IMG/VR virus record: IMGVR_UViG_3300025168_000133
Span: 1-49,699 of that record
Strand: one strand, 5' to 3'
DNA: 49,699 nt
Origin: a virus
A program made the translations under genes and the position numbers. The notes beneath the pieces are model-generated. The model was not told the origin of the DNA and ran no database searches. It saw only the letters and a program-made list of their open reading frames with translations. Position 1 is the first letter of the stretch, and every line of letters begins with the position of its first letter. Positions 1,677 to 40,594 of this stretch are shown here, piece after piece.

Positions 1677-2030
1677 TTAAAAATCACTCATTAATTGATT
1701 GTCTATTTCTTCTTGTACCTCTTCTCTTGTTGCTATCATTTTAAAACTTAAATCAGCTTGAAATCTTTTCACTTCTTCGTCATCTTTAAATATTATGATA
1801 GTGGGTACAACCGCTATTTTGTGTTTCTTTTGTAACTCTACATCTTTACTCACATCTACGTAAGAATAAGTTTCAATGTCCTCTAGTTCGTAAGCCCACT
1901 TTACTTCGTTTGCTTCGTTCCAGCTTGCGTTAAATACAACTACTTGTATTTGCCCAAAGCTTGTTTTGCAAATCAAAGTTAGTAGTATTGTTAATATATA
2001 CACGCTGAATATCTTCCAAACTGGTTTCAT
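1677..2030 (-). CDS. Thioredoxin-fold protein lacking the CxxC active site
   Basis: This 117-residue protein starts with a hydrophobic N-terminus ending in SFGQ, which reads as a signal peptide or membrane anchor. The rest follows the thioredoxin pattern: a beta strand QVVVFNASW, a helix, SYVDVSKD, then a VVPTIIIFKDDEEVKRF segment that matches the cis-proline loop and the following strands. The usual WCGPC site is replaced by WNEAN, so both redox cysteines are missing; the only Cys lies in the signal segment. It therefore cannot catalyse thiol exchange in the usual way. A structural or chaperone role in the periplasm, or a virion-associated role, is possible. Its ATG overlaps the stop of the upstream 107-aa gene (ATGA) and its stop abuts the secreted DDGSC protein, whose many cysteines make a folding-partner role tempting but unproven. 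Confidence 0.7.
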   Translation of the reverse strand: MKPVWKIFSVYILTILLTLICKTSFGQIQVVVFNASWNEANEVKWAYELEDIETYSYVDVSKDVELQKKHKIAVVPTIIIFKDDEEVKRFQADLSFKMIATREEVQEEIDNQLMSDF

Positions 2031-2350
2031 CTATTATAGATTTTATCTTCAATTTTTTCTAGAGTCTTTTTCATTTCCTCTATATCTGATTGGGTCGTTA
2101 ATATTGTTTGTCTAATCATCTGATCTTTCATATCAAACTCCATTCTAGTTATCTCAGCCTCTGGTATTGCTTGTAAAATTTCGTCCTTTAAAATATTGAC
2201 ATCTATCTGAACGGGTTGCTCTTTTGCCTCTTGTATTTCTTGCATAAGAGAATACCAACCACCTACAACTACAAATATACCTGCGGCTATCATCCCCATA
2301 GTTTTAACACTCATTTTAAAAGTAGTGTCTTCGTTTAATTCTTTCGCCAT
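2027..2350 (-). CDS. Small membrane protein with coiled-coil tail (spanin- or holin-accessory-like)
   Basis: This protein of 107 residues has a short polar N-terminus, one transmembrane segment (about residues 16-36, MGMIAAGIFVVVGGWYSLM) and a long charged helical tail ending EEMKKTLEKIEDKIYNR that looks like a coiled coil. The topology fits an anchored spanin-like or lysis-accessory protein, but no catalytic motif or lipobox is visible and no family is recognised. It sits between the giant virion protein and two exported proteins, with a four-base ATGA overlap to the downstream gene. The function remains unknown. Confidence 0.65.
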   Translation of the reverse strand: MAKELNEDTTFKMSVKTMGMIAAGIFVVVGGWYSLMQEIQEAKEQPVQIDVNILKDEILQAIPEAEITRMEFDMKDQMIRQTILTTQSDIEEMKKTLEKIEDKIYNR

Positions 2351-2394: not shown

Positions 2395-5300
2395 TTAATC
2401 GTGATAGTAACAATAGCCACTTTTAGAATTTGTCATCATACCACATCTTTCTGTCTTCTTTTTACTAACTTGTTTCATCTTCTTACATTGCGTATTTTTT
2501 CCGCTTTTATTTTGCTCTACTTTAACGTGGATAGTACAGTATACTGATCCTTTTTCAATTACAGTTTTACATCTTTTACCACTTTTACTAACGGCAGCGC
2601 ACATAATATCTTTTTTACCGTCTTTCTTTTCCTTTTTCTGTTTTTCTATATTATCCTCTATTACTTTTTTTTCTTCTTCTTCTTTTTCTTTTTTCTTTTC
2701 CTCTTTTTTTATTTCTCTTTTCTTTTTGGTTTCAATTTTCTTTTCCTCTTTAATTTCTTCTTTAACCGCTTGTATGTCTTTGTCTTTAATGCCAAGATCC
2801 CAAGTGTTCCAACCCATAACTAAAGCTACTCTTTCCCACCATTCATTACTTGAATCCGTGGCGTTATCTATATTTAACAACTTTTGAGATATTCTACCTA
2901 GCGGTATATTTGTAATTCCCTCGACAGTATTACCAATAGCACTCCAAAGTGGGTTATCTAAAGTAAAACCTCTTTTTGTAAATACACCTTCGTTGAATTT
3001 TTCGGTCTGTATAGACGAGTATATTTTACGTAATTTAGAACTAATAGGTGGAGAAAAACTAAGTAAGGATATTATAGTGTAAGCGTGATCAGCATTATAA
3101 CCCTTGTCTTTTTGTTCTAAATATTCTTCGAGAGATCTTTTCATAGTAGAAACCGCCTTACCACCATAACCAAAGGTTGATAACCAAGAATCTATCATTC
3201 CGTTTAATATTCTTTCTTTCTTTTTATCAAACTCTTCTTCTTCGTCATCTCCTAACGATGCGAATATAGCTGCTTGTAACGCCCCAAATATCACAGCTTG
3301 AATACCACCGTAATAAATTATTTTAGACATGTGTGTTTTTGTATCACCTCTACCATTAGCAATATCTCTGAAAGCCTTATTCATTATACGACCATATTGC
3401 ATCGGTGTGTTTTGAAAAGCTAGTATTAATCTTCCTAAAGGATTTGCTTGTTGTTGTGATATCATATCTGGTCTTGCTGACTGCTGAGACACCTCTGTTC
3501 TTTCTTGAAAATCTAAAAACGCCTTAGTTTCAGCTTCTGTTTTAGACATACCTTGCTTAACATAGGTTTTGACTCTATTTCTATAAAACGCAGCGCCACC
3601 TGAAGCAATAGCAAAACTATCCGCTATTTGTGTAGGTAAAAAACCTATTTTTAACAAATAACGTATAACCGCTTTTGCTTGCTCAGCGGGTCCAACCCCC
3701 TTTACCGCAGCGGATAAATCAGCTTCGTTAACACCTCTTCTGTTTCCAGATCTTCTTTGTTTTAAATAATCAGAATTAAACAGTGTTACAAAGTCCGACC
3801 AAAATTGTTTTTGATTAGCAAACGCAGCCGCTGCCTTTAGTGGATTGTTGTCTGTCCAGTTTATATAGTTAGTCGCAGATATAGTTTGTAGAACCGCAGA
3901 ACGTATATTAAAGAACATAATAGCTCCAACAGAGTTGTTTACCCAGTTCATGTAGTTGTTCATTAACCTGTTGCTACCGACAGATCTGTTTCTACCAGTT
4001 TCCATACGAGTTAATATATCTACTAAAGCTTCTCTAAACTTAGAACCATATATAGATTCTATTTTATTTAGATTTTCAGGAGAAAATATTTGATCTACGT
4101 TTTGTTTCCACTCAGCCAAAAACTCTGCTCTAGCATCGCCAATAGCGCCGTCGCTCATAAGATCTGAGGCTATGTTTTCTACTAACCAATACTCCCCTGG
4201 TTTAGAATAACCCTCTTGTTTTTTGGAAATAAGACCTAAGTTGTCCGCGAAGGCTTGTAGCTCTGAATCGTTTTTAACATAACTATCTAAAGCGTCTAAG
4301 TCTCTCTTGGATAGTCCAGGAACATCAAAACCAGCTTTGTTCCACAAATAAACCCTTACGGCTTGATCGTTTGTAAACCCTGTTTCGCCAGCTTTTTTAT
4401 TTAATCTTTTCTTAACTTTTGGAAATTGTTTAGTTAAGTTTTTGTAATCATTAGCCGCTGATTGCCTAGACGCGTTCAGTTCGTTTATAGCTCTAGCAAA
4501 AGGATCAATTAAAGCTTCTTTGAAAAAAACCATGTCAGCATCTCCTTTTTTACCCTTGCCTATAAAGTTGTATAACAAACCTAAAAAGTCTTGAGCCGAA
4601 GCTGGTACTAACCCTTTGTATCTACCCTTGTTTCCTCTTAGTTTAGCTTGAGCTTCTGAAAATCTTTTTTGTGATTCTATACCAGTTGTACTTTCTAATA
4701 TATCATTAAATTTAGTATCAAGAGTAGAGCTAAAGTTTATTTTAGCTTGAACAGAAGAACCTTTTATATCTAACTGCTCCATCATGTTTTTTACAGCCCT
4801 TACGTTAGGTAAAGCGTCATCAACAAAATACATATCGTTATATCCCTCCGAATATTTTCCAGCTATCCACATTGCTTTTGCTTCACCAGTACTGTTTCCT
4901 AATCCAGTTATATTTTTAAGAGGTATATTTATACCTTGTTCTTTTAACCAATTGTGTATTGATGTTTCGCTTTCCGAAGCCCTAGCTGTAAGTATATAAT
5001 TATTTTCAGGTCCAAACTTTTTTATTCTATTTTTTAACTTATCCATTAAAGGCCCTGGTCTACCATCTGTTACCCTGTTAAAATCCGTAAAGTCCATCTT
5101 CCACCCTTCGTTAACCATTCTTTCTCCAACAAAAGGCCATTCTTCAGACGATATTCTTTTTGTTTCTCCTTCTTTTGTAGCTATAACATAGTTATCACTA
5201 ATACCTACTGTTTCGTCAAAATCAAAAACACTTGCTCCTCTTGATGGTGTATTATGATTTATAACACGAGAATTCTGTATGGCGTTACTAGCTGTTCTAG

Positions 5301-8300
5301 CCTTATTAGAAGCGTCTATCTTTTTCCAATTATCTGCTTGTTGTTGTCCAACTACTTCTCCAGTGAAAACATTGTATAAAGCGTGGCTTGCTCCAGTTTT
5401 TGTCCATTGACTATACCATCTTTTTAAAGCGCTGTCTCCAATTTGATAATTAAAGTTCATTCTTGTTCCAAATAACCTACTAACGTTTTCGTTAAAATCA
5501 ACATGTAAAGCGCCAACTTCATAAACCTTTTTTATATCTTTCAAACTGATGTCTTGCCCAAACCAATGTTTCATTATAAACATAGAGTTAACAATTCTTG
5601 CGGGCATACCGTGTTCGAATTCAAACGTTCTTTTACCATCTACATTTAGAGCTGTAGTAAACGGATCTAACGCCGCCCATGTGAATACAGCGCCCATTCT
5701 TAAAGGAGTAGTTGGATGAGAATTCATTTGCGCCGCAAGCGCAGCAAAATTCATTTTAGTAAAGTTATTACTTTCATCTTTAGCTAACTTAGCGGATATC
5801 TCAAATATATCATCTGTAAATCTAAGAGCTTCGTCTGATAGTTGTTTTCTACTATCTCTTTCTACTTCGCTCATAGGAGAATCTATATTACCATCTTTGT
5901 TTGTGGTAGCTATCATTTCTTTAGTTACTTTCTGAGCGTGCTCTTGTAATATTTCTATTGTCTTAGTTTCATTACTGTTTTTGAATGTTATTTTTACAAG
6001 GTTTTTTCCTCTTATTTTTATAACTTTATCTATATTAGGATAAATTTGATTTAGTAAATTTTCAGTATAAAAATCATTATTCTTAAATATAGATTGACTT
6101 CCTCGGTATTTACCATTTTTACCTTTATTAAAACCGCTATTTAAGAATCCTCTAAAACTATAGAAATCTTGAAATACTTTTTCCTTTATTTGTTCTTCAT
6201 CCAACTTTGGATATCTTTTTTTTATTTTTTCAATATAAGGAACTACTGTAGTTCTATTAAACTTTCTTTGATCTTCTCTATTTGTTTCGTCTTCTATCCA
6301 AGGTGTTATACTTTCAACTTCCATTATTTTAGCCACAGTACCGCTTACGTCATCTCTTTTTGCGTCTTCAGCCATTAAAAAATCAAGGAAACTGTTAGTA
6401 TCTTGTCCTTCTATTACAACAGATTTATCTGTATACTTAATATATTTTTCGCGTAATATTTTAGAATACCAATTTATTAATTTACCTTTATAATCAACTT
6501 TATCGTCACCTATCCAGGCTTTTTCGTTTGGCCAAGTTTTTTCAAAAGCAGTTGTGATCTGTTGTTTTAATACTACTGGATTGTTTACGTCTAATATAAC
6601 TCCATCTAATCCTAATTGTCCGTGAAACTCATTTCTACCGTCCCAATACATATTTTGTATCGCGTCTTGTCCTGAGGCATCTATAATAGAACTAAGCATA
6701 AGATCACCTTTACCATCTTTCATAGATTGTAATCCTACTAAACCTTTCTCTCCAGCTATTTTAGTTATAGATTGATTAGCTATAATCATAGCAACCTGCA
6801 TTACAGACGCTCTTAAAGGACCGTCAACAATCCTGTCCTCTGTTCTAAATCTTCTTTCTACTCCTACAGGAGTAATACCGAGCATGTCTAGATAATCTGC
6901 TTCGTTTATATTGTCAACAAAGTTTTTCTTTTGTATCTTTAGTCCCTTTCCTCCTCCTTTTTTCTTTTCTGTACCGAAAACTATTTTATTACCAATTCTT
7001 TGTTTTACTGTCTTTACTCTTCCTTCTTGCGCGGTATATATTAAATTAGTTTCTCCAGTCTCAGAATTTATAGCTTTTCCTTTCTTACCATCTAAAAATA
7101 CTGGTTGCACGCCGTTGGCATCGCCTAAGGAATTAAACCCTTCTGGCATCATGTTTAACATTGACCTAGCTCCAATAGAATTAATCTTTAACTGCATCGA
7201 TGTTCTTTCTCCAGTAGTTAACGAAGCGTCATCTATTAGTTTACTAGGTTTTACACCAAATTCTTCTGCAACTAAATTTAAAATTTCTACTAGTACAGCG
7301 TCTTTTGCTTTTATTAAACTTTTAGTGTCTTTATAAGTTTTAGGATCTAAAGCTATAATCTCCATTATTTTTTCTTCAACTATAGAATCAAAAACATTTC
7401 TAGTTATATCATTTCCGTTTTCATCTTGACCAATAACATCTTCTGTAAATCCTAGCTTTTTAGCGAAAACAACAGTTCCTTCTACCGTTTCTACGTCAAG
7501 CGTACCGTCTCCTTTGTAATCACCACCTTGCTCAGCAGCAGCGCGGGTTTCTTGTAGTTTTCTAAAATCGTCTATAACACCAGGTTTTTTATATATAATA
7601 GTTTGAGCTAACCAACCAGACAAATCTCCCTCAGCGGCTCCTTGATATTTTGTTTCTGGATTATAATTAGTTATAGCTGTAGTTAATTTATCTTTAACCG
7701 CTTGCATAAAATCACTCATTGGATCTTTCTGTCCTTTAACAAAAATAACGTTGCTACCCTCCATTCTGGTACCTAAATTTCTAATAGAACCGTTTAACCA
7801 ATCGTTACCAGGTAGATTAGGGTCGCTAGTCAATAGGTTGGCTGGGTGAGGTTGTTTTGTAATAACCCAGTCGCCAGTTTTCTTATCTCTTCTTCTTTTT
7901 GTTTGAACCCCTTTGTCGAGTAAAGCGTCGTACTCTTCTTTAGTCATGAGAGAGCCGTCTGTATTTCTTACTAGGTTATTTATAGATTGTTCTATAGTCT
8001 CTCCTCCTTTTGTAACTGATTGCTGCATGTCACTTCTAACGTCTCCAGCTAACCCCTTTTTATTTTTAGCTGCTGCAACTTGCACTCTATATGACTCTGA
8101 TATTCTTCCTTTTTTAAAGTCTTCTAAAAAGCTTACTACTTCAAACGCGGCTTCTCTTGCGTTTTTAACTGTGTAATCATCTTTTCTAAATCTAGGAAAA
8201 GTACTTCTACCTCTTTCTGTTACGTCTTGACGTAATTTAGCAAACTTTGAGTGACTTATTTTAGTCGTTACTTCTCTTATATATTCGTCTAAAATTTGAT

Positions 8301-11300
8301 CAATTCTATCTAATCTTTTTTTGCTTGTCGTTGTCTTTTTACGTTCGTTAATAATATTTGCTATTGTTTCTCCATTTTTCAAATAAAACCCTTCCCCATC
8401 AGACATTCTTCTAAGGTCGCTTTCTACAGCTTCGTTTAATATTTGGGCTCTTTTGTTTTTGTCTTTTGATAAAAACTCATGTAAATAAATTCCTTTTTGA
8501 GATATTTCCTCTATGGTTTTTGTTACATTGTCTAAATAGTGACCCATCTCGTGCATCCAAGCAGCGCCTTGTAAGAAAGATCCTTCACCCGTAGCGTCTA
8601 AGTCTTCCCCCATTCTTATTTTAGCCTGCTTTTCGTTAATAACAAAAAACGTGTTACCTAAAATAAAGCCGTTACTATTTTTTTCAATTTGCTTTCTATT
8701 GTTTTCTACTTGCTCCCTCAGCCGTGTTTGCTGATCTGAGTTTATTCTATTAGGATCTCCATCTGGCAACGCTGCTAATTCATTTATTTTATTTAACAAA
8801 CCGTCAACACTTCCAACTTCGTCAAAGACTAAATCCTTACCGGTTGATTTTTTAACTTCTTCGGCAATATTTTTTGAATTTATCTTACCTTCTTGAAAAG
8901 TTTGTAAACCTTTTTTACCGCCAGCGTAATGAGTTCTAGCTAAGTAGTCATATATTTCTTTTTGTTTTCTGTCCCTTTGGTGTCTTTTGTATTTGTAGTT
9001 CTTAGTGTTTTTATGCTTGTTCTCCCATTGCTCTTCGGTTTGATGTCTTTTATCGTTAAGAATAGTAACTTTACGTTTCGATGGATCTACCTCACCTTCA
9101 ATTTTCTCTCCAGTTGCTTCTTCAGTCGCTTCTCTCTCCAACGTTTCTATCTCTTCTTCTGTTGATATAACCTTAGCACCATCACTGTTGTAATTGTTAT
9201 CTTCTACAGTAACATCATTGTTAGAGTTTTGAGACATAATGTTATCTGATAAAATAGAGGCTTGATCGTCATTTTCTACTTTTATAACAACTTCTCCCTC
9301 ACCTTCTTTTGCTTTTTTTACCGCGTCAATAAAATCCTTTTTAGTTTCGTATACATTTCCGTCTACCTCATAGTACGCATCACCAGTGTTTGTTTCAACC
9401 GCGTCAACGATTTTATCGTTATCTTTCATTTCTGAGGTTGCGTTCTCTAAAAAGGATTGCTGTATGTATTCTAATTCTAAACGTAACTTGTTTTGTTCGT
9501 CTGCTCTATCGTATTCTTCTGCTCTTTTTTTTCCTTTTTTGGTCTTATCGTTTTTTATTCTATTTTGGATTTCTTTTCTACCGCCATTATCTTTATAGTT
9601 TGGACCGTAAATTGCTTTAGCAGCGGTCTCCATGTCAAAGTTGTCTTTTAACTCTTCGTTAGATTTTTTTATTTCGTGGTATTTATTGTACCATGCGTCT
9701 CCAGATCCTTTTTTCTTTTTGTTTAATCTAGCTTTGTACAATTGAAGCATTTTTTCTACGTGAGTTTCATCAGCGGCGGTTTTAGAAGTAACGCCAGCTT
9801 CCACGTAATACTTATTTAAAGCTTTTTCGTTTTCAAATATGGTTTTTTGATCAGCCTCGTTCATTCCTAAAACTTGTACATGGAAATTCTGCCAATTAAT
9901 AAAGTTCTTCTTTTCTAACTGCATAACTTCATCGTTAAGAACTTTTCTTAGCTCTTCTAATCTAGCGACTTCTTGTGGGTTACCAACGGCCTTCTTGATT
10001 TGTAAATCAATATCCATTATACTTCCCGGCGTTGGATTACCATCGTTATCAAGCTTACCTTTTATATCATTTATCTGTTGGAATATAGCGTTAAATTCAT
10101 CACGAGTTTCCTTCTTCATGTTGTGATTAATAACCGCGTTAGCCGTAAGAGACATAGAGTTCATGCTACTAGACATAACAGCAGCGTCTATCATAACTTT
10201 AGATAATTGGCTATAATCTCCTTTTCTATCAAACAAATAAGAATCAATAAATTCAGTGGTAAGATATATGGAGCTTTCTTCTGCTATTTCACCAACTGTC
10301 CCTCTTACAGTTCCTGTAATTACATCTCTAGTTGCTATGTATGGATTGTAACTCATTGTACCTTGCAAACCAGATTTAGAATTAGCAAATACTTTTTGTA
10401 AATTCCTAGCGGTGTTAAGTCTACCAGCGCCAAGCAAACCAAATCCGTACGTAAAAGTACCTTCAACAAGACCGGTCTGAAGAACAGAGAAAAAGTGTTG
10501 CGCTGCGGAGATATCGGCGGCTCGAACAATATCATCTATATTCTGTTTGTTAAGCAAGTATGTTTCGTCGGTTACAAAACCCTTGTCGTACTCTTCGTTA
10601 AGAGCGTCTAATTTAAGAAGTGCGTCTTCAGCGTTTTCGTAAAGAGTCTTTAACTGTACATCTTTTCCCCCCATACTTTGAAGAGCAATACCACCGGACG
10701 CTATAGCCATCGTTGTTTTTGTTCCAAAACCAACAGCGCTTCCAACCCCTAAAGTGGAAACAAAGTAAATCATATTCGCGCCTTGATCCGCCCAAACCAT
10801 ACCGAAAGCACCCCAGTTATTTCCTTCTCCCCATTCGTAAGACTTTTCGCGTTGAGCGGCTTTGTTGTTAATCTGTAGTTGATCAATAGCAGACTCGTTA
10901 CCTAGCAGAGCAGGTATAGTTAGCAAAACATTATCTGAACCTCTACCGGCGCGTCTCCAAAAGTTTTCCCAATAATCAGTTGAGAAAAACTCTTGAGATT
11001 GTATCGCGTCTAAAGTAAGTTCGTTGCCCATCATTTCAATTTGCTGGTTACCTATCCTTTCAATCTCCGCTGAAATTTCTTCCCTAGTATCGTGATAAAC
11101 ACTTATAGCGTCATATAAGTGGTCCACAAGCGTCACAACTTCTCCGGTTTTTTGATCTATAACTGGATCACCATTTATATCTAATAGTGGCGGGTGATTA
11201 TCTGGTTCCTCACCCTCTCCCTCCCAAATAACTTGGTCTAACTTAATGTCTCCGGTTTCTTCGTTAACAGTAATTCCCGGCATCCAACCATTGTCAGCTA

Positions 11301-13971
11301 GATCTTGCATAACGTCTTGAACTTGAGTTTGGTTAGACAAGACTAACTCAGACATTACATCTAGTGTTTCTTCTATATCTTCTTTTATTTGCTTTTCAGT
11401 AGCCGGAGTTATATTACCTTCTCCATCGTCGTACATAGCTACGCCAAAGTCCATAAATGCTATTTGGTGTTTTCCGTCTTTTCGGTTTTGAATAAACGTT
11501 GTTATCTTTTTATTGTAATCTGTATTGTACAAACTTTCTGTTATCGACTGTTCGCTCCCGTCGTATTGTCTATCTAACTCCTGTAGCCAAGCCCAAGCTT
11601 TTTTAGCATTTCCCCTGTCTAACGCCTCTCCTTCTGCTGATGAGTAAGTGATAGTTTTGTCGTAAGGTCTAGTCACCCCCGAAAAATTCCACACGTCTTC
11701 ATAGAAATCTTCAAAATCCATTTTATTTCCATTAGCTTTTTTGTCTGCCCACCACTTAATAGATTTTGACGACATATTACCTCTTCGGTTCGCAAATTCC
11801 GGCGCTATATCTTCCATGTTACCCATTGTCATGATTGGTATTCTTACGTCGTTGGGGTCTAACCCCAGATAACCAGAAAGTTCTTTTGACGCTTCAACAC
11901 CAATATTATTTAAGAATTTCACCACTATTTCCTGATCTGTTATATCTTTTTCTGACTCTTCTCTTTCTAATTTTTCACGATACTCTTTTACTGGATTTAC
12001 AAGCGTTGAATTTTGATATTTTAATCCATTTTTATAGAGAGCGTTCATTTCTTTTTTGGTAACACCTTCCTTACTAGAAAGGTACGATATAACTTCCCAG
12101 CCATGTTTAAATCTTTTAACTTCTTCACCGTTTCTTTTTAACACTAACTGCCTTAGTCCTCCTCCCTTGTATTCTAGCGTTAATCCAGACCCCTCAAAGA
12201 AATTGTTAAAACCTTCGTCAACCAAGTCGTGTACGTCTTGATCAGATACGCCTGATTGATGCCTATTTAAATTATCAAGCATCTTATCAAACGGCATTGG
12301 CTTTTCTCCAGATTTAGTAGATTTTTGCAAAAGAGAATTTAACAACGTTATATTACCTCTTTCGTCTTTTGTTTGAGCGTCTAACTCTTTTAAAATCATT
12401 TCTAAAGATTCTTTAGACCAACTGTCTCCTTGAGCCCATATTACAAAGTCCCCTTTTTTATAAGCTGAACCTGGATTGTCTTCTCCCCAACTAAGAGGAC
12501 CAATTAAAGAAGGCATATATATTTGAACATAATCTCCCGAAGTATAATGAGAGTTATCGACGTTATTTATTACAAGGTTGTATTTTGATAAATTACCACC
12601 TGTTAATATTTCCGTTATTTCACTTGGACTCGTGTCTCCATCGCTTCCTATTGCTTCTAGATTACTTAGCGCTTTTTCTGTATTGTACTTAGTAGTTGTA
12701 GTTATCTTATTTTCCCCTACTTGATCTGGAGTCATAACCATATTGTCATGCATCCATTGCTCTCCGTGTACTTGAAAGTTAGTTTCCATGTCTTCGGAAA
12801 TTCCAAACTGTATAGTTTCAAGAACATCATCTTGAGTAATCCACTCCTCAAATTTATACATAACAGTCGCCTTATCCATCCATCCAATGTTGGGACTGTA
12901 GTATAATCCAGACATGTCTTGAGCAGTTTCCGTGGATCTAACATACGCGGCAAATGATCTTTTGTCCGTTTCTATTTTTAATTCTTTCTTTAAATCTTCT
13001 ATAGAGCCACCGTAACCTCTACCTGTTAATTCTTCGTACTCTTCGTAAATAGGGGCGATTTCTTTTTTTGTCTCATGGTAAGCGTCTAAATCAAGAAAAT
13101 CTTCGTATCTATCGACTATATATCCTATTCTAATCTCTTTTTCCTCCTCACCTAAATCAGAGTTTATTATTTCACCAATTTCGTCAGCGTAAGAACTAAC
13201 GTCAACAGGTTTAATTAAAGAACTACCGTCGGAATCTATTGTTTTTGAATCTTTTTTATGTGTTTTTAACACGATTTGGAAGTGATTTTCTCCACCCTGT
13301 AAACCAAAAGGATCGTCGGTTCCCTCAGCTTTGTCTATAGCTACGTTATGCGCTAAGGCCTCGTCAACGGTTGTTGAGTAATCGTAACCACCATCCGAGT
13401 ACTTAACTATGTAATCTTCTTCCGTTAATGCTATAGTAGGCGTGCTAGGGTTTTGAGAAGATCTTATGTGATCACTCGGTGTTGAACCGAAACCTACATT
13501 TATAGCTCCTTTGTTCTTAATTTTTTCTTTCTCTCTCTTGTCTTCTCTTTCTTTAATAATACCTTGGTAGTAATTTGCTTTATGTTGAGGGTCTATTTTC
13601 ATGTCAGCAAACAGTACCTCATCTAGTAGTCTTATATACGCAGAGTCTAATTGTTCGTCGTTATATTCTCCAGAATCTACAAGTTTTTTGTATTTTTTTT
13701 CCACCTCATCCATACTAGCTTTTTCCCCCGTAAACACTGATACCTCTTCTTCTGTTGGAACACTTATTGTAGATAAGTCTAATTTTGGAGTTTCATCAAC
13801 TTTATCAGTAACTTCTTCTTCGCCAGCTGCAGCGGCATCACCACCGTGTGCGGCTATGTGCTCTTCGGCTCCTATATCCCACGCGTGTCCATTAGGATCG
13901 TAGCTAGGTAGCTTCTTGTTGTCTTCAGCAAGATGGGCCTTATGTTTTAATGGTGATTTAATTTTAATCAT
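2395..13971 (-). CDS. Giant polyvalent-type internal virion protein with zincin-like and HAD-like domains
   Basis: At 3858 residues this is the largest gene in the window. Visible parts in order: an acidic N-terminus beginning MIKIKSPLKHK; a hydrophobic stretch near residues 1061-1094; the peptide DAAVMSSSMN near 1262-1271, shared with two other phage proteins; a zinc-metallopeptidase motif HEMGH at 1807-1811; a HAD-like domain from about 2910 with DFDET (2917-2921), ILTARA and FVDDALPN near 3050; a strong transmembrane segment near 3548-3571; a Lys/Glu-rich helix; and a C-terminal pair of C..C..C..H mini-domains (about 3788-3858). This architecture fits the 'large polyvalent protein' class described for phages and mobile elements, thought to be packaged and delivered with DNA, and its position matches T7 gp16 or crAss-like cargo proteins. 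No lysozyme motif was recognised. Its ATG overlaps the stop of the upstream 291-aa gene by four bases. Confidence 0.85.
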   Translation of the reverse strand: MIKIKSPLKHKAHLAEDNKKLPSYDPNGHAWDIGAEEHIAAHGGDAAAAGEEEVTDKVDETPKLDLSTISVPTEEEVSVFTGEKASMDEVEKKYKKLVDSGEYNDEQLDSAYIRLLDEVLFADMKIDPQHKANYYQGIIKEREDKREKEKIKNKGAINVGFGSTPSDHIRSSQNPSTPTIALTEEDYIVKYSDGGYDYSTTVDEALAHNVAIDKAEGTDDPFGLQGGENHFQIVLKTHKKDSKTIDSDGSSLIKPVDVSSYADEIGEIINSDLGEEEKEIRIGYIVDRYEDFLDLDAYHETKKEIAPIYEEYEELTGRGYGGSIEDLKKELKIETDKRSFAAYVRSTETAQDMSGLYYSPNIGWMDKATVMYKFEEWITQDDVLETIQFGISEDMETNFQVHGEQWMHDNMVMTPDQVGENKITTTTKYNTEKALSNLEAIGSDGDTSPSEITEILTGGNLSKYNLVINNVDNSHYTSGDYVQIYMPSLIGPLSWGEDNPGSAYKKGDFVIWAQGDSWSKESLEMILKELDAQTKDERGNITLLNSLLQKSTKSGEKPMPFDKMLDNLNRHQSGVSDQDVHDLVDEGFNNFFEGSGLTLEYKGGGLRQLVLKRNGEEVKRFKHGWEVISYLSSKEGVTKKEMNALYKNGLKYQNSTLVNPVKEYREKLEREESEKDITDQEIVVKFLNNIGVEASKELSGYLGLDPNDVRIPIMTMGNMEDIAPEFANRRGNMSSKSIKWWADKKANGNKMDFEDFYEDVWNFSGVTRPYDKTITYSSAEGEALDRGNAKKAWAWLQELDRQYDGSEQSITESLYNTDYNKKITTFIQNRKDGKHQIAFMDFGVAMYDDGEGNITPATEKQIKEDIEETLDVMSELVLSNQTQVQDVMQDLADNGWMPGITVNEETGDIKLDQVIWEGEGEEPDNHPPLLDINGDPVIDQKTGEVVTLVDHLYDAISVYHDTREEISAEIERIGNQQIEMMGNELTLDAIQSQEFFSTDYWENFWRRAGRGSDNVLLTIPALLGNESAIDQLQINNKAAQREKSYEWGEGNNWGAFGMVWADQGANMIYFVSTLGVGSAVGFGTKTTMAIASGGIALQSMGGKDVQLKTLYENAEDALLKLDALNEEYDKGFVTDETYLLNKQNIDDIVRAADISAAQHFFSVLQTGLVEGTFTYGFGLLGAGRLNTARNLQKVFANSKSGLQGTMSYNPYIATRDVITGTVRGTVGEIAEESSIYLTTEFIDSYLFDRKGDYSQLSKVMIDAAVMSSSMNSMSLTANAVINHNMKKETRDEFNAIFQQINDIKGKLDNDGNPTPGSIMDIDLQIKKAVGNPQEVARLEELRKVLNDEVMQLEKKNFINWQNFHVQVLGMNEADQKTIFENEKALNKYYVEAGVTSKTAADETHVEKMLQLYKARLNKKKKGSGDAWYNKYHEIKKSNEELKDNFDMETAAKAIYGPNYKDNGGRKEIQNRIKNDKTKKGKKRAEEYDRADEQNKLRLELEYIQQSFLENATSEMKDNDKIVDAVETNTGDAYYEVDGNVYETKKDFIDAVKKAKEGEGEVVIKVENDDQASILSDNIMSQNSNNDVTVEDNNYNSDGAKVISTEEEIETLEREATEEATGEKIEGEVDPSKRKVTILNDKRHQTEEQWENKHKNTKNYKYKRHQRDRKQKEIYDYLARTHYAGGKKGLQTFQEGKINSKNIAEEVKKSTGKDLVFDEVGSVDGLLNKINELAALPDGDPNRINSDQQTRLREQVENNRKQIEKNSNGFILGNTFFVINEKQAKIRMGEDLDATGEGSFLQGAAWMHEMGHYLDNVTKTIEEISQKGIYLHEFLSKDKNKRAQILNEAVESDLRRMSDGEGFYLKNGETIANIINERKKTTTSKKRLDRIDQILDEYIREVTTKISHSKFAKLRQDVTERGRSTFPRFRKDDYTVKNAREAAFEVVSFLEDFKKGRISESYRVQVAAAKNKKGLAGDVRSDMQQSVTKGGETIEQSINNLVRNTDGSLMTKEEYDALLDKGVQTKRRRDKKTGDWVITKQPHPANLLTSDPNLPGNDWLNGSIRNLGTRMEGSNVIFVKGQKDPMSDFMQAVKDKLTTAITNYNPETKYQGAAEGDLSGWLAQTIIYKKPGVIDDFRKLQETRAAAEQGGDYKGDGTLDVETVEGTVVFAKKLGFTEDVIGQDENGNDITRNVFDSIVEEKIMEIIALDPKTYKDTKSLIKAKDAVLVEILNLVAEEFGVKPSKLIDDASLTTGERTSMQLKINSIGARSMLNMMPEGFNSLGDANGVQPVFLDGKKGKAINSETGETNLIYTAQEGRVKTVKQRIGNKIVFGTEKKKGGGKGLKIQKKNFVDNINEADYLDMLGITPVGVERRFRTEDRIVDGPLRASVMQVAMIIANQSITKIAGEKGLVGLQSMKDGKGDLMLSSIIDASGQDAIQNMYWDGRNEFHGQLGLDGVILDVNNPVVLKQQITTAFEKTWPNEKAWIGDDKVDYKGKLINWYSKILREKYIKYTDKSVVIEGQDTNSFLDFLMAEDAKRDDVSGTVAKIMEVESITPWIEDETNREDQRKFNRTTVVPYIEKIKKRYPKLDEEQIKEKVFQDFYSFRGFLNSGFNKGKNGKYRGSQSIFKNNDFYTENLLNQIYPNIDKVIKIRGKNLVKITFKNSNETKTIEILQEHAQKVTKEMIATTNKDGNIDSPMSEVERDSRKQLSDEALRFTDDIFEISAKLAKDESNNFTKMNFAALAAQMNSHPTTPLRMGAVFTWAALDPFTTALNVDGKRTFEFEHGMPARIVNSMFIMKHWFGQDISLKDIKKVYEVGALHVDFNENVSRLFGTRMNFNYQIGDSALKRWYSQWTKTGASHALYNVFTGEVVGQQQADNWKKIDASNKARTASNAIQNSRVINHNTPSRGASVFDFDETVGISDNYVIATKEGETKRISSEEWPFVGERMVNEGWKMDFTDFNRVTDGRPGPLMDKLKNRIKKFGPENNYILTARASESETSIHNWLKEQGINIPLKNITGLGNSTGEAKAMWIAGKYSEGYNDMYFVDDALPNVRAVKNMMEQLDIKGSSVQAKINFSSTLDTKFNDILESTTGIESQKRFSEAQAKLRGNKGRYKGLVPASAQDFLGLLYNFIGKGKKGDADMVFFKEALIDPFARAINELNASRQSAANDYKNLTKQFPKVKKRLNKKAGETGFTNDQAVRVYLWNKAGFDVPGLSKRDLDALDSYVKNDSELQAFADNLGLISKKQEGYSKPGEYWLVENIASDLMSDGAIGDARAEFLAEWKQNVDQIFSPENLNKIESIYGSKFREALVDILTRMETGRNRSVGSNRLMNNYMNWVNNSVGAIMFFNIRSAVLQTISATNYINWTDNNPLKAAAAFANQKQFWSDFVTLFNSDYLKQRRSGNRRGVNEADLSAAVKGVGPAEQAKAVIRYLLKIGFLPTQIADSFAIASGGAAFYRNRVKTYVKQGMSKTEAETKAFLDFQERTEVSQQSARPDMISQQQANPLGRLILAFQNTPMQYGRIMNKAFRDIANGRGDTKTHMSKIIYYGGIQAVIFGALQAAIFASLGDDEEEEFDKKKERILNGMIDSWLSTFGYGGKAVSTMKRSLEEYLEQKDKGYNADHAYTIISLLSFSPPISSKLRKIYSSIQTEKFNEGVFTKRGFTLDNPLWSAIGNTVEGITNIPLGRISQKLLNIDNATDSSNEWWERVALVMGWNTWDLGIKDKDIQAVKEEIKEEKKIETKKKREIKKEEKKKEKEEEEKKVIEDNIEKQKKEKKDGKKDIMCAAVSKSGKRCKTVIEKGSVYCTIHVKVEQNKSGKNTQCKKMKQVSKKKTERCGMMTNSKSGYCYYHD

Positions 13972-14843
13972 ATATTCATGTCTGCGCTTTTGCTTTTCAT
14001 ATCCGCTATTATTTGGTGTGCGGATGATGATTTTTCGGGTAATTTTTCGTTAGTTTCTTCATTCACCTCTTCTTCCGTAGATAACATTCCAAAAGCTTTT
14101 TTAATTCTATCAGAATAATGTTTATGTAATCTAGTATCAAACTCTGGATTAAAAGATTCTGGGTGTAACATTTCGTCTGGTATTTCTCCAGAAGCAAGCG
14201 CTTGTTCGTTTTCCTGAAGGTAATCTTGTAAAAAGAATCTTCCACCAACCTTGTCGGTGGTAAACGATTTCCAAGCGTCGTTGTTTGTCAGTAAGTTATC
14301 TATAGCCCAATCAACGTCGAAGTCTAATTTGTTGCCCATTGTGTTAGATTGCTTAACCGCATCTTGCTGCATTTTCATAAAATCAGTTTCCTCCGTTCCT
14401 TTAACAACCCAATCTTGCGTTATGTCTTCTATTTTTTTAACTACCTCGGCTCCGTCTGGAGACACAACACTTAACACTGGTCGTAAATCATCACCAAACT
14501 GGATCGTACCTTTTTCTAAAAAGAACGGAATATCAAACTCTCGTAAGTTAGTCCAATTAGAAAACGTGTTTTTACCTCCAGTACCTCCACCGTAAGTTAC
14601 TGCAAATTCTTTTTTTATTTCTTTTAAATTATCTAAATCTTTAGCTATTTGCTTTATAACTCCAGAAAAACTACTAGCCGTCTGTTTGTCTCCAGCCTTC
14701 ATAGCCTCGTCGTATTTTGCCACCAAACTTGACACCATATAGTTTATGGCTTGTTGGTTGTCTTTTCCATGTATTTCAGATGACCTAGCGTCATCACCAT
14801 AAGGCATGTTTTCAAAATATTTTCTTGCTTCTTTATCTGACAT
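13968..14843 (-). CDS. Putative internal virion protein (T7 gp15 position)
   Basis: This 291-residue acidic, mostly helical protein has no recognised domain. It has no signal peptide or transmembrane segment. It lies between a 227-aa Gln/Ala-rich protein and the giant protein, the position of gp15 between gp14 and gp16 in T7-like phages, and its last four bases overlap the start of the giant gene, so the two are translationally coupled. The C-terminus (KSSSAHQIIADMKSKSADMNI region) is polar. A role as an ejected or cargo protein is inferred from position only. Confidence 0.7.
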   Translation of the reverse strand: MSDKEARKYFENMPYGDDARSSEIHGKDNQQAINYMVSSLVAKYDEAMKAGDKQTASSFSGVIKQIAKDLDNLKEIKKEFAVTYGGGTGGKNTFSNWTNLREFDIPFFLEKGTIQFGDDLRPVLSVVSPDGAEVVKKIEDITQDWVVKGTEETDFMKMQQDAVKQSNTMGNKLDFDVDWAIDNLLTNNDAWKSFTTDKVGGRFFLQDYLQENEQALASGEIPDEMLHPESFNPEFDTRLHKHYSDRIKKAFGMLSTEEEVNEETNEKLPEKSSSAHQIIADMKSKSADMNI

Positions 14844-14856: not shown

Positions 14857-15540
14857 TTATTTCGCATCTTTTTGACCTAATCCTCTTTCTGCTAGCCCCG
14901 AAAGCCAATCGCTACCCATGCCAACCCCAGCCTTTAAAGACCCTGTGGCAAAAGCATCTATCTGCGAGTTCATTTCGTCAATTTTTTGATTAGCAGCGTT
15001 TTGTCTTTGCCCTGCGTAATCTAACATTTTTGCTTGTTTATCCATATCGTACTGCTCTACCATTCGATCTCCTTCTCTTTCTAACATATCTCTTTTTTGC
15101 TCTCCCTTAGCTTTTAACTCTTGTAATCTTCCAGATTCAGCAACCATTCTTTGTTGGTTAGCTTGTTCTTGAGCCCCAATACTTAAAGAAGCTTGTTGCG
15201 CTTGTTTAACTCCTTGATTAGCCAATACCTGCGCTAATCCAGCTACACCACTTCCTCCAGCGGCTCCTTGCATACTGGTCATTATATTAGCCATAGATTG
15301 TTGTGATTGTTCTTTTTCAAACTCAGCTTGCTTTAAGTTTACAGTTTGATCTTCGTAAACATTTTCTAAACTTTCGTAAGGATTTTTTACACCAGCGTAG
15401 GGATTTTTCATTTTAGTATCCTCGTAATCATCCATGTGTCTTCCAAAATCTTCTTGTGCAGCTCTTTGTTCTTTTCTAAGCGCAGCTCCTCCAAACACAG
15501 CGGTAATAAATTTTGCTGGTGTTGCTTTTTTATATGCCAT
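14857..15540 (-). CDS. Internal virion protein, Gln/Ala-rich (T7 gp14-like)
   Basis: The product is 227 residues. A basic N-terminus (MAYKKATPAKFITAVFGG) is followed by a long Gln, Ala and Glu-rich helical region with a Gly/Ala stretch (QGAAGGSGVAGLAQVLANQ, about residues 92-110) and a final Gly-rich amphipathic segment. This composition and length are typical of the small internal virion protein of podoviruses (gp14-like), which inserts into the host envelope during DNA ejection. It is the first of three adjacent genes (227, 291 and 3858 aa) that mirror the gp14-gp15-gp16 set. Assignment is by composition and order, not by a diagnostic motif. Confidence 0.65.
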   Translation of the reverse strand: MAYKKATPAKFITAVFGGAALRKEQRAAQEDFGRHMDDYEDTKMKNPYAGVKNPYESLENVYEDQTVNLKQAEFEKEQSQQSMANIMTSMQGAAGGSGVAGLAQVLANQGVKQAQQASLSIGAQEQANQQRMVAESGRLQELKAKGEQKRDMLEREGDRMVEQYDMDKQAKMLDYAGQRQNAANQKIDEMNSQIDAFATGSLKAGVGMGSDWLSGLAERGLGQKDAK

Positions 15541-17300: not shown

Positions 17301-18266
17301 TTATACAAAATTCGAACAAATTGCGCAAGTTTGATGTATCGTCCAACTAAAACTATTTATACTTGGTTTATGATACAACATCTTTGAACCATTTCCCGGG
17401 TTAGATCCAATCCCCATATATTTATAACAAGCTTCTTGATTGGTGAAATGAGATGGACCACTTATATTTCCATTAGTTACATCTAGCGACAATACGTCAC
17501 CTATAGAAAGTGTTCCGATGTTATTGTTAATAAAATCAAAGTGCTCATGACTAGCGTCACAAGTAAAACGATGCGTTGTGCCGCCAGTTCCTGAAGGACC
17601 ATAGTTACCAAAAGACATCGAAAATCCATCGCTACACCTTTCGAATAAATGATAATTTTGATGACAATTAATGGGTGGAGGTGGAGTTATACAATTAGAT
17701 TGACAAGCAACTAATGATGCGTATGTTCCATTACCTGTTCCTGGATCAACACAATTACCCTGACCATCACAATCCCACGATGGGGTTGCTACAACGCCAC
17801 AAGCGGTGTTACAAGCGCTTAAAGACGCGTAAGCTCCGTTACCAGTTCCTGGATCTATACATGCATTATTGATACAATCATAGGTAGCTAAGGGATAAAC
17901 ACAAGACCCATCATCAATATTTGCACTAGCATAGTAGTTTATAGCAGTAGGATCCAGACATCCATAAATAATTGGCACACAACTTCCGTCATCACAAGTA
18001 GCTAATGGATCATAGTTAAATGCAGTTAACTCACAACAACCTGGAACAGAATCGTTACTACCAGTAGTTCCACACGTTAAACATGTGTTACCACCAGTGT
18101 ACAAACAGCTCCCATCATCACACGTTGCAAGTGGATTAAAATTTGTCGCTGTAGGATCGCAACAGCCAGGTGTTAGACCTCCAATACAACTTCCGTCGTC
18201 TATAGTTGCGAGTGGGTTGTAATTTGTTGCTGTTGGATTTGTACAGCCCGATATTGCTAATGCCAT
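17301..18266 (-). CDS. DDGSC-repeat tail-tip or adhesin protein
   Basis: This protein of 321 residues has three modules. Residues about 7-125 hold four repeats of the type GCTNPTATNYNPLATIDDGSC split by short linkers. Residues about 128-195 hold two other Cys repeats with DPGTGNGxYASLxAC. The last about 120 residues form a domain with HFDFINNNIGTLSIGDVLS and ACYKYMGIG, ending in CAICSNF. This last domain is clearly homologous to the C-terminus of the neighbouring 2262-aa tail protein (HFNYITNNVGTLNVGDVLS, CYEYMGLG, CPACDNF). There is no signal peptide, unlike the secreted protein at the left edge. The gene is probably a stand-alone copy of the receptor-facing module of the tail. Receptor binding is inferred from position and from the surface-type repeats. 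Confidence 0.7.
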   Translation of the reverse strand: MALAISGCTNPTATNYNPLATIDDGSCIGGLTPGCCDPTATNFNPLATCDDGSCLYTGGNTCLTCGTTGSNDSVPGCCELTAFNYDPLATCDDGSCVPIIYGCLDPTAINYYASANIDDGSCVYPLATYDCINNACIDPGTGNGAYASLSACNTACGVVATPSWDCDGQGNCVDPGTGNGTYASLVACQSNCITPPPPINCHQNYHLFERCSDGFSMSFGNYGPSGTGGTTHRFTCDASHEHFDFINNNIGTLSIGDVLSLDVTNGNISGPSHFTNQEACYKYMGIGSNPGNGSKMLYHKPSINSFSWTIHQTCAICSNFV

Positions 18267-18294: not shown

Positions 18295-21200
18295 TTACGG
18301 AACTTGAAGAAAGTTATCACAAGCTGGGCAGTCTGTATGTATCGCCCAATCCTGAACTAGGTTCACATTTACCAGTATACTCGCGGCACCTCCACCACCC
18401 GCCATCATTTGTGGACTAACTCCAGGAGTTCCAAGCCCCATGTATTCATAACACGGTTGTTCTGGCCATTGATTAACTTGATAAACACCACCTCCAGTTA
18501 AGCTAAACGATAGTACGTCTCCTACGTTAAGGGTTCCAACGTTATTGGTAATGTAGTTAAAGTGATTATTACTTGCTGAACACGTGTACGATAAAGATGG
18601 TCCTGCCCATCTACCAAATTGGATGATTTCCCCAGTAACGCAATTTCTAAACTCGTGCCACGAGCAGTAAGTGCAACTACCATCATCAACCGTAGCGCTG
18701 TTGTTATAGTTTGCTGCTAAAGGATCAGTACAACCAGGCACCGCAGTATACGTACAACTACCGTCATCAACATTAGCCAGTGGGTCGTAATTGTTTGCGT
18801 TTGGATCCGTACACCCCTCTATAACAGAAGGATAAGTACAACTACCATCATCAACGGTTGCGGCTGAATCGTAGTTTAACGCTAAGGGATCCGTACAGCC
18901 AAATATCGCGTAAACACAACTACCATCATCTACCATTGCTGTTGGATCATAGTTAGTTGCCGTTGGATCCATACAACCACGTACAATAGGGTATGTACAA
19001 GAACCATCATCAACAGTAGCAGTAGCGTCATAGTTTGTTGCTGTTGGATCCGTACATCCTGAAACAGGAAGATAAGTACAACTTCCATCATCTACCGTTG
19101 CAAGAGAGTTGTAATTTGTTGCGCTTGAATCTGTACATCCTACTACAGTCGCAGCCGCGCAGGGTAGACATTCTCCAGTTACAACGTTGGTTACTCCTAA
19201 TCCTTGGAAATTAAACGCAGCTGTATCCACAGTTTCGCACGATCCTTTTATATAATTAAACCACTTACCTTCTTTTTCTATAAATTCATTTAACGTTCCG
19301 TCTTGTTTGTCTGTGTGTATATCTTCTACGTACCAACCTTTCTTTTCGTATAAGTTGTAATAATCGTTGTCAACTAAATTTATATCTACCTTGGTTTGAC
19401 TACCTTCATAGTTTAAAGTGTTAAAATTCTTAACAACGTCTGGTTGTTTGTTTAATATAGGTGTTACGGATGACTCTGTAAACGGATTAGCAACAAGATC
19501 AGTATAAAAAGTATTCCTAGTTTCTGGTGTTGTTTCTTGGTGGTGTTTCCACAAAGTTCCTTCCATCATAGTGTAATACTGATTAACACTACTAATAGCA
19601 AACTCAGGTACAAACGATTTAAAACTTACCCATCCTTTTGCCATCTCGTTGTAAGTTACTGTCCTTGCGTACTCTGGATATTCACAACAACCTTCACAAG
19701 AGGCAGTGGCGTTAGGATCGTAATTTAACGCTCTAGAATCGGTACAACCTATTAGCGCTCTGCCTCCGTCCTCTCTGTTCTCTCCGTATGACCTAGCACG
19801 CACAGAGGTACCACGAGATAAATTACCTCTGTATAGGTTTTTAAACATAGTTAGATTGTAGTTTCCTTTGTGTGCGTCATAACTTCCAAGTAGCACTTGG
19901 TTAAGTGGTAAATTATCTCTGAAATAATCATGCATTCCAGCGTCTGATATTGGTGTTATTCCGTCCATAGATAATCTTATTACAGCTCCTCTTTGTTTGT
20001 CTGTAAAATAAGCTCTAAATGATTCCGCAGCAAATGATTCTGGATTTTTAGATATACCGTAATTACCTCTAAAAGGCTCTGCTGTTCCTAAAACTCTATT
20101 AGTAGCCAATAACTGCGTGTTACCATCTGCGTTGTAAAGAATATCTTTATCTACAAATACTTTTATAATTTTATCTTCACAAAGTGTTATAAGATCTTTA
20201 TCTCTAGCGTATAATTTTTGTATACTACCGTAAGATGGCATTAAATCTTTTGTTATTTTTTCAGCTTGTATAAATTGATTTAAATTATTTATTCCGCTTA
20301 TAGAATTGTATATTCCAGAATATATCAATCCGTGTTTTCTTCTTTCTTCTTCGTACGGTTCTTCTAATACGGTTGATGCTTTTACTCCATTTAAAATAAA
20401 CGATTCATTAAAATCATCTCTAACTCTATTAGATTCAACTCCATTTCCAAAAGAAAAACAATTATAATATGATAACCCAACTTTTTCTTGGTAAGAATTA
20501 TCTCTTATTCTTAATTTAGTTATATAAAAATCTGGGCCGGTGGTGCTTATCTCTGTAACGCCATCTATTACCGCGGACGTGTAACTACCGTCTTCTCTCC
20601 AAAACCAAAGATAATGAGTTCCATATATAGTGCTTTGATCACTCCAACCCATAGCGTCGTTACTAGTCGTAAGTCCTTGGCCACTTGGGTTTGTTATTAA
20701 ACCTGGGCCAAATAATTCTAACTCATTACCTTCCCATGATTTCACTTTTAGAAATAAATCATAAGCGCCACCGTAAAGATTGTTTTGAGAATTATAATCT
20801 ACTAAACTATTTATAACGCTACAAGTAACTTTAGTGCCTATAGGCGCTAAAAGATGTCCTTTATCACCATCTAATCCAATAGGTAAAGCGTCACTTGCTT
20901 CGTAATATATATTTAAATCAACATCTTCGTCGGCTTCTGTTTCAAATATAGCTGGGGAAGTTGGTAGGGTATTAGCTCCTGGTTCTATATAATCATCAAC
21001 AAATCTAATGACTTGAGCGGTGTCGTTGTCTGCTGTGTCAGGAAAAATATCGATTTGATTTATAGTACTATCGTTATCATCGTGATCCCAACTAATTGAA
21101 CTATTTGTAGTAGTGTCTTTATCTACTTGTAGTATATAAGTCGTTCTTCTGTTATTTGCCTTACCAAATCTTACTACGGCATCTTTAAAATTTTGCCACG

Positions 21201-24200
21201 GGCCATCTTTAAATGGAACTGTGTGATATTGGTAACCATTACCATCTAAGTAATCCATCATTCTCTGCATCCAATAAGATACGCTTCCAGTTCCATTTGA
21301 ATCTTTTGCAAATAAGTTACCTGCATCGTAAGTATGTATACCGTTCACAAAAACTGCTGGTGATGGATTCCAAGAAGTGTGGTTGTAAATTCTTTTTACA
21401 TGTACTCGTTTTATAGTGTAAATTTCATTATTGGTATCTCCAACTATCATAAATCTACTACCGGATTCTAATCTATTTACAATAGATTGCGCAGATGGAT
21501 TTAAATAACCAGGTTCCCATTGTTGGTAATAATCTTCTTGTTGGGCTGGGGTTAAAGAATTGAAGTGAACGGAGTTACCATTAACCGTTGGAAATACCCA
21601 ATTCCCGTCGTTTTGCGAAGGATATATACCATCCCTATAAATAGAAGTTGCTCTAATTCTATCAAACGCGTGAAATAACATTGTGTGGAATCTATCTGCT
21701 CGAGATGAACTCGAGTCATCAAAATTTGTCATATCGTAATCAGCTTGGTCGAAGTCCCCATCGTGTAAATCTACGCCTGGAGCTAAAAAAGAAAGATGTA
21801 TCCAATTTCCACCGTCGTCTACAGGTTCGTAAGTTGTATCCCAAGACGCGGGAGGAGGATCATACAACGGGTCCATCGAGCTTCCACCAGCTGTATTTCC
21901 CCATTGTCCGTTGTTTACTGGGTCTATAACAGTTTCGCTCCATAATCTAGGGCCACCTCCGTTTGCAAAAGGGGCTCCAGTTTGATCTACTATAGAATTG
22001 TATGGAATTGAGTCGATTGAAGAATTACTCGTAACACTAGGGTGGGGTGTAGTCGGCGTTCCAGCGCCTCCTAAAGTTGGGGTGATAACAGCTTCAAATC
22101 CATTTACATACTCAGTATTTTGCGTAATAGTAAACGGTCCACCTGGAGGCCCTGCTTTGTTAGCTAAAATATCTCCCTTCCACATTTTTCCTGATTGCCT
22201 AGCGTTTCTAGTGTCATTTGATTGGGCCGCTACAAATGTCGCGTTATCCAAAAACCACCCCCCAGTATTGTTAACACCTGTATCAAAAGCAGCGTTTTTT
22301 CTCCACGCGGATTCATCAGAAACTCCACGGGCAGCGAGTTGCGTGGGGGTCATTACCGTGTTAGAGCCAGTCCAAGAGTTTAAGGTGTTGTATACACCCG
22401 GCACTGGACCAACCCAACTACCTGACGCGTCAAACAATTGAAACGCTTTTAACTTCGCCAGAACTTGAAAGGCGTATATATCCTGTGTTGAAGGTATTAG
22501 ATACGTTTGCGTCACTGGATTTGAAACGATTTTAACAAAAAATCTACCTTCAAATTCAATAGGATTTTTTTCTTCTAGTTTGTATATGGTAATAGTTAAT
22601 CCCTTATTGTAATTCAATACTCCAACGGAACTTTCTACCCAACTATCTGAATCTTGTATAACTTTTCTTAACACCATGTTGTACTGTAAGTCTCCTCCGT
22701 TGTCTTCCACCGAGAATCCAGTAACAAAATATTTTTCCGATTTTATATTGTTACCACTTTCTACGATAGTAAATTGAACTGCTAGTCTATCGCTTTTACT
22801 AAGATCTTCTAGGGCTAATCCGTTTTCATCATCTACCCAAGTATCTTTATCTATTAATAAACGTTTAACTCCAGCACCTGGTTGAGCAGATATATCTTGA
22901 AACAAATTATCTAAATTAATTTGACTTCCTCCAGCGCTACCTAAAGCGACGTAATCATATTTAATAGATTCCGGAGCTTCGTTTTTAATATCTATAATTT
23001 TGATTTTGTTTTCTATAGGTATTATTTCTTCTATATCAACTTGTTTCTTAATAGAAAAGTAATCACCTATTTCAATTTTATTTCTATCTGAAGACGGAAA
23101 AGAAACCCATAAATTCTCGTCTCCAGCGGCTTTGTAAACTCTGTCTAAGGTAAGGTTGTAGTATTCTCCGGTGGTTTGTTTTATAAAATACTTAAAATAA
23201 CGAGCCCAAGATGGTTGATTCCCTGTTAAACTAGCTATTAGTCTTGTTGAATCATCCGCAGCTCCATCAAATCCAGCTGTGTTATCCCAGTCAAAAGGTA
23301 TGTGATGCGAAGCGTTTTTACTTGTTAATACTGGGGTTTCTCTTCCGTATTTATCTCCGTAAACAATTCCTAAATAATAAGTTCTTAATGATTTTATAGA
23401 TTTCTCTGCTCGATTGTTAGTAAAAGTAACAGGTAGCGGCAAACAGCAGTTTCCTACTTGCCCTTCTCTTAAATAATCTCTATATTCAGAATTTAATGTT
23501 ATCGAAGGTGTAGATATATCCCCGTAAATATCTTTCAAACTATAGTTTTGTAAATAATTTCCGTAAATAATTCTATTAGCTGTTATTTCTTGTGAAAGTG
23601 CTTTTCTAGGAACGTTATCCCAAGGTCGTAACATTTGATTGTCTGGTAAAGCGGCGTATATATTTTCTGTGGTTACTTTGTATAGTCCAGATTTTCCTCT
23701 TAAGTTACTTGCTAATGAATTAATTGGGGGGAGGGGGGGTGGCACTTGTCCTACTACGTGAGAATCGATAATATGTACTCCGTCGTAAGCATTGTCGTAA
23801 TCGTGCCAATGCGTTGATCCAGGTAACGTAGTGTCGATTTTAGCGCTATCTATAGAGTATATAGTTGTAGACCTTTCTTTTTTAAATAGAATATCTACTT
23901 GCACAACATCATTAGGTGTGTCCTCACGAATAAAATCTTTTATAGTTAAAGACGTTGCTCTACTTTCCATTCCTTGGTTAAACGGATCGTCTGTTGGGTG
24001 AAAGTAAAATTGTCCAGCTAGAAATATTGGCACAGTAAAAGGAGAGTAAGCGGAGTATTCACCATCAACATATTTCCATCTAGTAGCGAATCTTATAAGT
24101 TCTTTTTCAAATAGCGGGTCAGTTTCAGGTATTTGCGTAGCGTTAAATAATAATATTTCATTTTCGTATATCCTATCTGTTTCTATGATCTTTAAATCCC

Positions 24201-40336: not shown

Positions 40337-40594
40337 TTAATCTATTAGTACAACGTCCATTTGTTTGATAACGCCGTAAAATTTATCTTTATGCTGGATT
40401 CCATGTCCAGCGTGTTTGTCGTAGTATATTACATCGCCTTCTTTTATTCCCTCGACGATGTTACCAATTGATATTACCTTAGCTTTTAAATACCTATTGT
40501 CTTCGTTTGTTTCATCTGTAAGGATTAGGCCACCTACTTTCTTCAGCGCCTCCTTTATTGGCTCTATTACAATATAATGATTAACTGCTTTCAT
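40337..40594 (-). CDS. groES: Phage GroES co-chaperonin
   Basis: This protein of 85 residues matches GroES: MKAVNHYIVIEPIKEALKKV start, the mobile-loop region KVGGLILTDETNED, then KAKVISIGNIVEGIKEGDVI with the GroES strand pattern and a final GVIKQMDVVLID. It is shorter than bacterial GroES (about 95-97). It lies immediately downstream of GroEL and overlaps the GroEL stop by 14 bases, the same pairing as in host operons, so the two should form a phage-specific folding chamber. It is transcribed with the late genes. Confidence 0.85.
   Translation of the reverse strand: MKAVNHYIVIEPIKEALKKVGGLILTDETNEDNRYLKAKVISIGNIVEGIKEGDVIYYDKHAGHGIQHKDKFYGVIKQMDVVLID

Follow-up and report, generated by a model that had tools for sequence, protein, structure and literature searches.

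The 3858-residue protein considered here is probably an ejection protein of the N4 gp50 kind, made by a podovirus of the elemo/phi40:1 type and fitted with accessory enzyme modules. The window (the whole stretch of DNA analysed) is an IMG/VR virus record of 49,699 bases from a marine virus akin to flavobacterial phages. As the original prediction had it, the giant gene runs from 2395 to 13971 and its motif residues lie where they had been placed. It is an uninterrupted minus-strand reading frame with an ATG start, and the last gene of a long minus-strand late block that holds GroEL/GroES, terminase, portal, capsid and tail-type proteins. The gene and its immediate neighbours are as follows.

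2395-13971, minus strand: giant gene (3858 aa), whose product is, judging by synteny, probably an internal virion (cargo) protein that is ejected
13968-14843, minus strand: 291-aa gene directly upstream of the giant gene; positional counterpart of phi40:1 gp100 and N4 gp51
14857-15540, minus strand: gene of 227 aa, kept on the upstream side of the giant gene in 62 loci; corresponds in position to phi40:1 gp099 (a virion protein) and N4 gp52
2027-2350, minus strand: 107-aa protein, hydrophobic segment at its N-terminus; next gene downstream of the giant one in 47 loci
1677-2030, minus strand: 117-aa protein, thioredoxin-like, with a probable signal peptide; closely follows the giant gene on its downstream side in 40 related loci

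The conserved 227-, 107- and 117-aa neighbours are always on the strand of the giant gene. The giant gene closes the late block in elemoF, phi40:1 and Manatee Spring as well. This order of a small, a medium and a giant gene, which closes the late operon, is that of N4 gp52-gp51-gp50, where a 16.5-kDa protein and a 66-kDa protein are followed by the giant protein. We regard the gene order as decisive for the N4-type reading of the giant protein.

Elsewhere in the late block, GroES and GroEL are phage-encoded (40337-42143, minus strand); elemo and the Manatee Spring phage encode them too. A 130-aa protein with the motif HEMVHQTD (39046-39438, minus strand) has weak peptidase M90/M91 matches and is a second, small zincin-like gene of the block. 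Repeats of the type GCTDPxAxNYxxxAxxDDGSC occur in three genes (3-1676, 17301-18266 and the C-terminal end of 18295-25083, all on the minus strand), two of which stand around fibre-like proteins.

Terminase and portal each have 87 GenBank phage matches, among them Flavobacterium elemo, Cellulophaga phi40:1, Calle and phi46:3, Tenacibaculum Gundel, a Maribacter phage and the Manatee Spring phage; of these, Calle and Gundel belong to the podoviruses (PMC8776804). Relatives of the giant protein itself are in IMG/VR, where residues 2900-3858 have at least 187 related stretches, 80 loci of which were read out. Complete members of the family are about 2200 to 4100 aa long; nearly every relative can be aligned over the last 950 residues. 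Queries with residues 2900-3858 and with the zincin region found no match among GenBank phages (tblastn). In the bacterial genome assemblies scanned, only 9 hits came up; every one is in a MAG and most are on short contigs, which lends a cellular or prophage home no support. The family of the giant protein is large, and modules are exchanged between its members. The start of one relative (L017, 2453-5152) resembles a GH108 muramidase, with a match that narrowly misses the Pfam cut-off. The whole chain gave nothing over the cut-offs in Pfam, PHROGs or NCBIfam. Its parts are listed below.

10972-13971, minus strand: N-terminal 1000 residues, with no relative among the 80 fetched loci
9361-10947, minus strand: ejection-type domain, residues 1009-1537, common to phi40:1 gp101, phi46:3 gp120, elemoF gp18 and Gundel gp74
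8029-8778, minus strand: zincin-like module, residues 1732-1981, with HEMGH and candidate third ligand E1896
8539-8553, minus strand: HEMGH, residues 1807-1811, the zincin-like site
8284-8286, minus strand: E1896, third-ligand candidate, a conserved glutamate downstream of HEMGH
5365-5880, minus strand: third conserved module ("EH"), residues 2698-2869, with the pair E2786-H2787
4729-5253, minus strand: HAD phosphatase domain, residues 2907-3081 (D2917, D2919, T2995, R2997, K3032, D3051, D3052)
2722-4674, minus strand: all-helical C-terminal region, residues 3100-3750, candidate packaging domain
3250-3306, minus strand: borderline hydrophobic helix, residues 3556-3574 (Kyte-Doolittle and model)
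2398-2604, minus strand: two CCCH-type Cys/His motifs, residues 3790-3858 (Pfam zf-TRM13_CCCH)

The ejection-type domain, which sits upstream of the zincin-like module, ties the protein to cultivated phages. Residues 1009-1537 match the domain of phi40:1 gp101, phi46:3 gp120, elemoF gp18 and Gundel gp74 with a probability of 99.4% (hhalign, E 7e-22). The profile of this family in turn matches the N-terminal region of the N4 virion RNA polymerase (vRNAP), with E 1.8e-4 against one N4 sequence and E 1.7e-6 (90%, 138 columns) against a nine-sequence N4 profile; reversed, shuffled and block-shuffled controls for the profile match gave E 0.002 or worse. The window's own subgroup profile alone gives E 0.53 against the N4 profile, so the window is linked to N4 only indirectly, via the family profile. 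The N-terminal region of N4 vRNAP is described in PMC5512222 as having a role in protein injection. Of the syntenic proteins, elemoF gp18 (3694 aa) is annotated 'structural protein' and phi40:1 gp101 (1691 aa) 'experimental MS/MS proteomics', that is, a virion protein; the Manatee Spring counterpart has 3859 aa. As phi40:1 gp101, the smallest syntenic relative, has neither HExxH nor the HAD motif, the MS/MS evidence reaches the core only and not the enzymes. The claim of a large cargo-type, polyvalent-like protein fits the gene order, the domain shared with an MS/MS-annotated virion protein and the swapping of modules. N4 RNA polymerase core domains are absent from the giant protein by Pfam, which found four N4 RNAP families in the N4 control, and the DxDxD motif of crAss-type RNA polymerases is also absent from it.

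A protein of this composition should by chance contain an HExxH 0.05 times, and 101 of 2000 shuffles had one, so HEMGH in a single sequence is weak evidence when taken alone. Among relatives, HExxH stands at the aligned site in all 77 that cover the region, and stray copies number 3 in 221,183 residues. Judged from these alignments, HEMGH is not a chance occurrence. HExxH always comes before the HAD motif, 806-1668 residues away (median 995 in the 77 relatives), and is followed after 60-85 residues by a conserved glutamate. In a clean alignment of 32 sequences, invariance (32/32) is confined to the H, E and H of the motif and this downstream E (E1896 of the window), and they are retained at about 15% identity among relatives. 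Large MAFFT alignments place R1889 of the window in the ligand column; it was set aside and E1896 preferred as third ligand, since the subgroup and smaller sets put E1896 there. In the AlphaFold2 model of the module (pLDDT 80, pTM 0.78), HExxH lies on a helix, a beta hairpin follows, and E1896 is on a second helix. This is the zincin pattern of HExxH with a third ligand on a later helix, in the arrangement of helix, hairpin and later-helix E that PMC5512222 describes for polyvalent metallopeptidases. H1807, H1811 and E1896 very likely form a metal site, and the module may act as a peptidase.

The original prediction of a zincin stands as to the invariant HExxH and distant glutamate on two predicted helices; its fold was not recognised in any structure library. 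Searches of PDB and BFVD with the model (Foldseek/VIA lists) retrieved no zincin, and the PDB fold search gave only helical proteins, e.g., phosphodiesterases, with Z 3.5 or less. The best PDB sequence hits of the region, an M48 peptidase (0.045) and thermolysin (0.28), are below significance. Homology to the N4 MPTase was considered and rejected as not significant (E 0.007, with controls reaching 0.002). The same type of module occurs in elemoF gp18, Gundel gp74 and the Manatee Spring protein as HEIFH or HEFGH followed by an E-rich helix; elemoF gp18 matches the zincin profile with E 1e-9.

Structure prediction around the motifs fared better for the second enzyme: here a HAD fold was obtained. 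The HAD motifs are DFDET at 2917-2921, ILTAR from 2993 and VDDA at 3050-3053, and all the catalytic residues (DxDxT, T/S, K, DD) are invariant in 71 sequences. In the predicted model of residues 2887-3776 (pLDDT 77), the HAD part consists of alternating strands and helices, in the Rossmannoid HAD fold. Its VIA-align matches are HAD phosphatases, the PNK type leading the generic HADs by about 2 Z units: at the top of VIA-align 2 is the T4 Pnkp 3'-phosphatase (Z 13.0, rmsd 2.4, 127/142 residues), next the Pnkp1/Rnl/Hen1 phosphatase and then generic HADs with Z near 10-11. Pfam gives weak hits on family members (DUF2608 in 42/46, HAD in 14/46). With the fold taken from the model, the HAD domain of the giant protein is confirmed. 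The nearest fold suggests nucleic-acid ends or nucleotides as its substrate, in agreement with the 'nucleotides or DNA ends' proposed originally. Extra sequence lies within or after the HAD domain in the relatives L001, L044, L045, L049, L053, L058, L066 and L072; the insertions look as if the cap region had been replaced, and L001 has a second one after the domain.

The remaining modules vary in how well they are kept. In the EH module the E-H pair is present in 51/53 and 53/53 sequences, and an R, a Y and a D are also conserved. Pfam and PDB gave no identification of this module, which might be another enzyme. Residues 3100-3750 are all helix in the model and the best conserved part of the family; a piece of this C-terminal domain recurs in Gundel gp74 (E 4e-46), which is without HAD. 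The strong transmembrane segment predicted at about 3548-3571 turned out to be borderline: the best 19-residue Kyte-Doolittle window (3556-3574) scores 1.63, only 5/67 relatives reach 1.6 there, and the predicted structure has a helix at about 3544-3572. The predicted C-terminal Cys/His pair was borne out by zf-TRM13_CCCH in two stretches (29.3 bits vs. a cut-off of 20.9), which pass Pfam when the C-terminal fragment is scanned alone and not in the whole chain. At least one copy of the motif is present in 28/80 relatives, hence it is optional in the family. Cys/His repeats of the same type are found in a 92-aa protein with a likely signal peptide (48266-48544, plus strand).

Could the protein be purely structural, an internal or portal-vessel protein in which the zincin and HAD domains are inactive remnants? 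The relatives are annotated as structural proteins only, and phi40:1 gp101 does without both motifs. Against this, the catalytic residues of both sites are invariant in very divergent sequences, HExxH and its E at about 15% identity and every HAD motif residue in 71 sequences; decaying domains would lose such residues. We consider this explanation quite improbable. Hardly more credible is a zincin that serves in prohead-type maturation, with capsid or internal proteins as its targets during assembly and no action on its own chain or in the host. It sits in a late structural gene, and zincin-driven maturation of phage heads has been proposed (PMC7824862), but the site is part of a giant chain encoded last in the operon and not beside the capsid gene, and the separate small HEMVH protein at 39046-39438 is nearer to the terminase.

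A more serious contender is that the giant protein stays intact, its metal site being structural or aimed at a host protein. The precedent is N4 vRNAP, which, according to Iyer et al. (2017; PMC5512222), is packaged unprocessed despite its MPTase domain. We hold this to be a possibility of some weight, short of an even chance.

We prefer the view that the protein is an N4-gp50-like ejection protein, and from it we infer ejection, proteolysis and the HAD reaction as follows. The chain would be packed in the head and enter the cell by way of the short tail, either before the DNA or together with it. Residues 1009-1537 would handle ejection and passage or membrane contact, with accessory modules added around this ejection core in the present lineage. 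The helical region after HAD probably anchors the protein in the virion; it is proposed as a packaging anchor on the model of N4, in which encapsidation depends on the C-terminal 1400 residues (PMC5512222). The zincin-like site probably cuts a chain, either its own or a host protein, and trimming may come before or after ejection. Once in the cell, early in infection, the HAD phosphatase would act on nucleotides or the ends of nucleic acids. PNK-type HADs in jumbo phages have been linked to RNA repair (PMC7824862). It is conceivable, though we think it unlikely, that the virion delivers an end-healing enzyme: the zincin would free a PNK-like 3'-phosphatase from the ejected chain, and this would mend RNA or DNA ends cut by host nuclease defences ahead of all phage gene expression.

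The two active sites are testable (H1807/E1808/H1811/E1896 and D2917/D2919/K3032/D3051), and packaging, cleavage and ejection of the giant protein are measurable in the cultivated relatives elemo, phi40:1 and Gundel. The analysis connects a large giant-protein family of uncultured marine phages with the N4 ejection system and with a relative that is in culture and has an MS/MS annotation.

In comparison with known systems, the protein is of a kind already represented by N4 gp50 and the polyvalent proteins. Like N4 gp50, the virion RNA polymerase of 3500 aa, it is the giant product of the last late-block gene after small and medium virion proteins, its ejection domain matches the N4 N-terminal region at the family level, and it has HExxH with a distant E in a middle-to-C-terminal module; unlike N4 gp50, it is without N4 RNA polymerase domains by Pfam and adds HAD, the EH module and Cys/His motifs. 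With the polyvalent proteins, as Iyer et al. (2017; PMC5512222) present them, it shares a very large multidomain chain (3858 aa, with zincin-like site, HAD, EH and CCCH motifs), linkage to phage late and packaging genes and the joining of a zincin-like site to unrelated enzyme domains. It differs in having no named polyvalent-associated domain by Pfam, which also missed the MPTase of the N4 gp50 control, and in its HAD domain, which the searched passages of that paper do not mention. The T4 polynucleotide kinase 3'-phosphatase has the same HAD fold, DxDxT, R after motif II, K and DD, whereas identity is about 13%, no kinase domain is seen in the window protein, and its HAD is embedded in a giant virion-type protein. 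The syntenic elemoF gp18 and phi40:1 gp101 carry the 1009-1537 domain, but both are without HAD and the conserved C-terminal region; elemoF gp18 matches the zincin profile, whereas phi40:1 gp101 lacks HExxH. New, as far as our analysis shows, are the marine family, a PNK-like HAD in such a chain, the EH module and the profile link from flavophage giant proteins to the N4 injection region. One ejection core bears different enzymes in different lineages.
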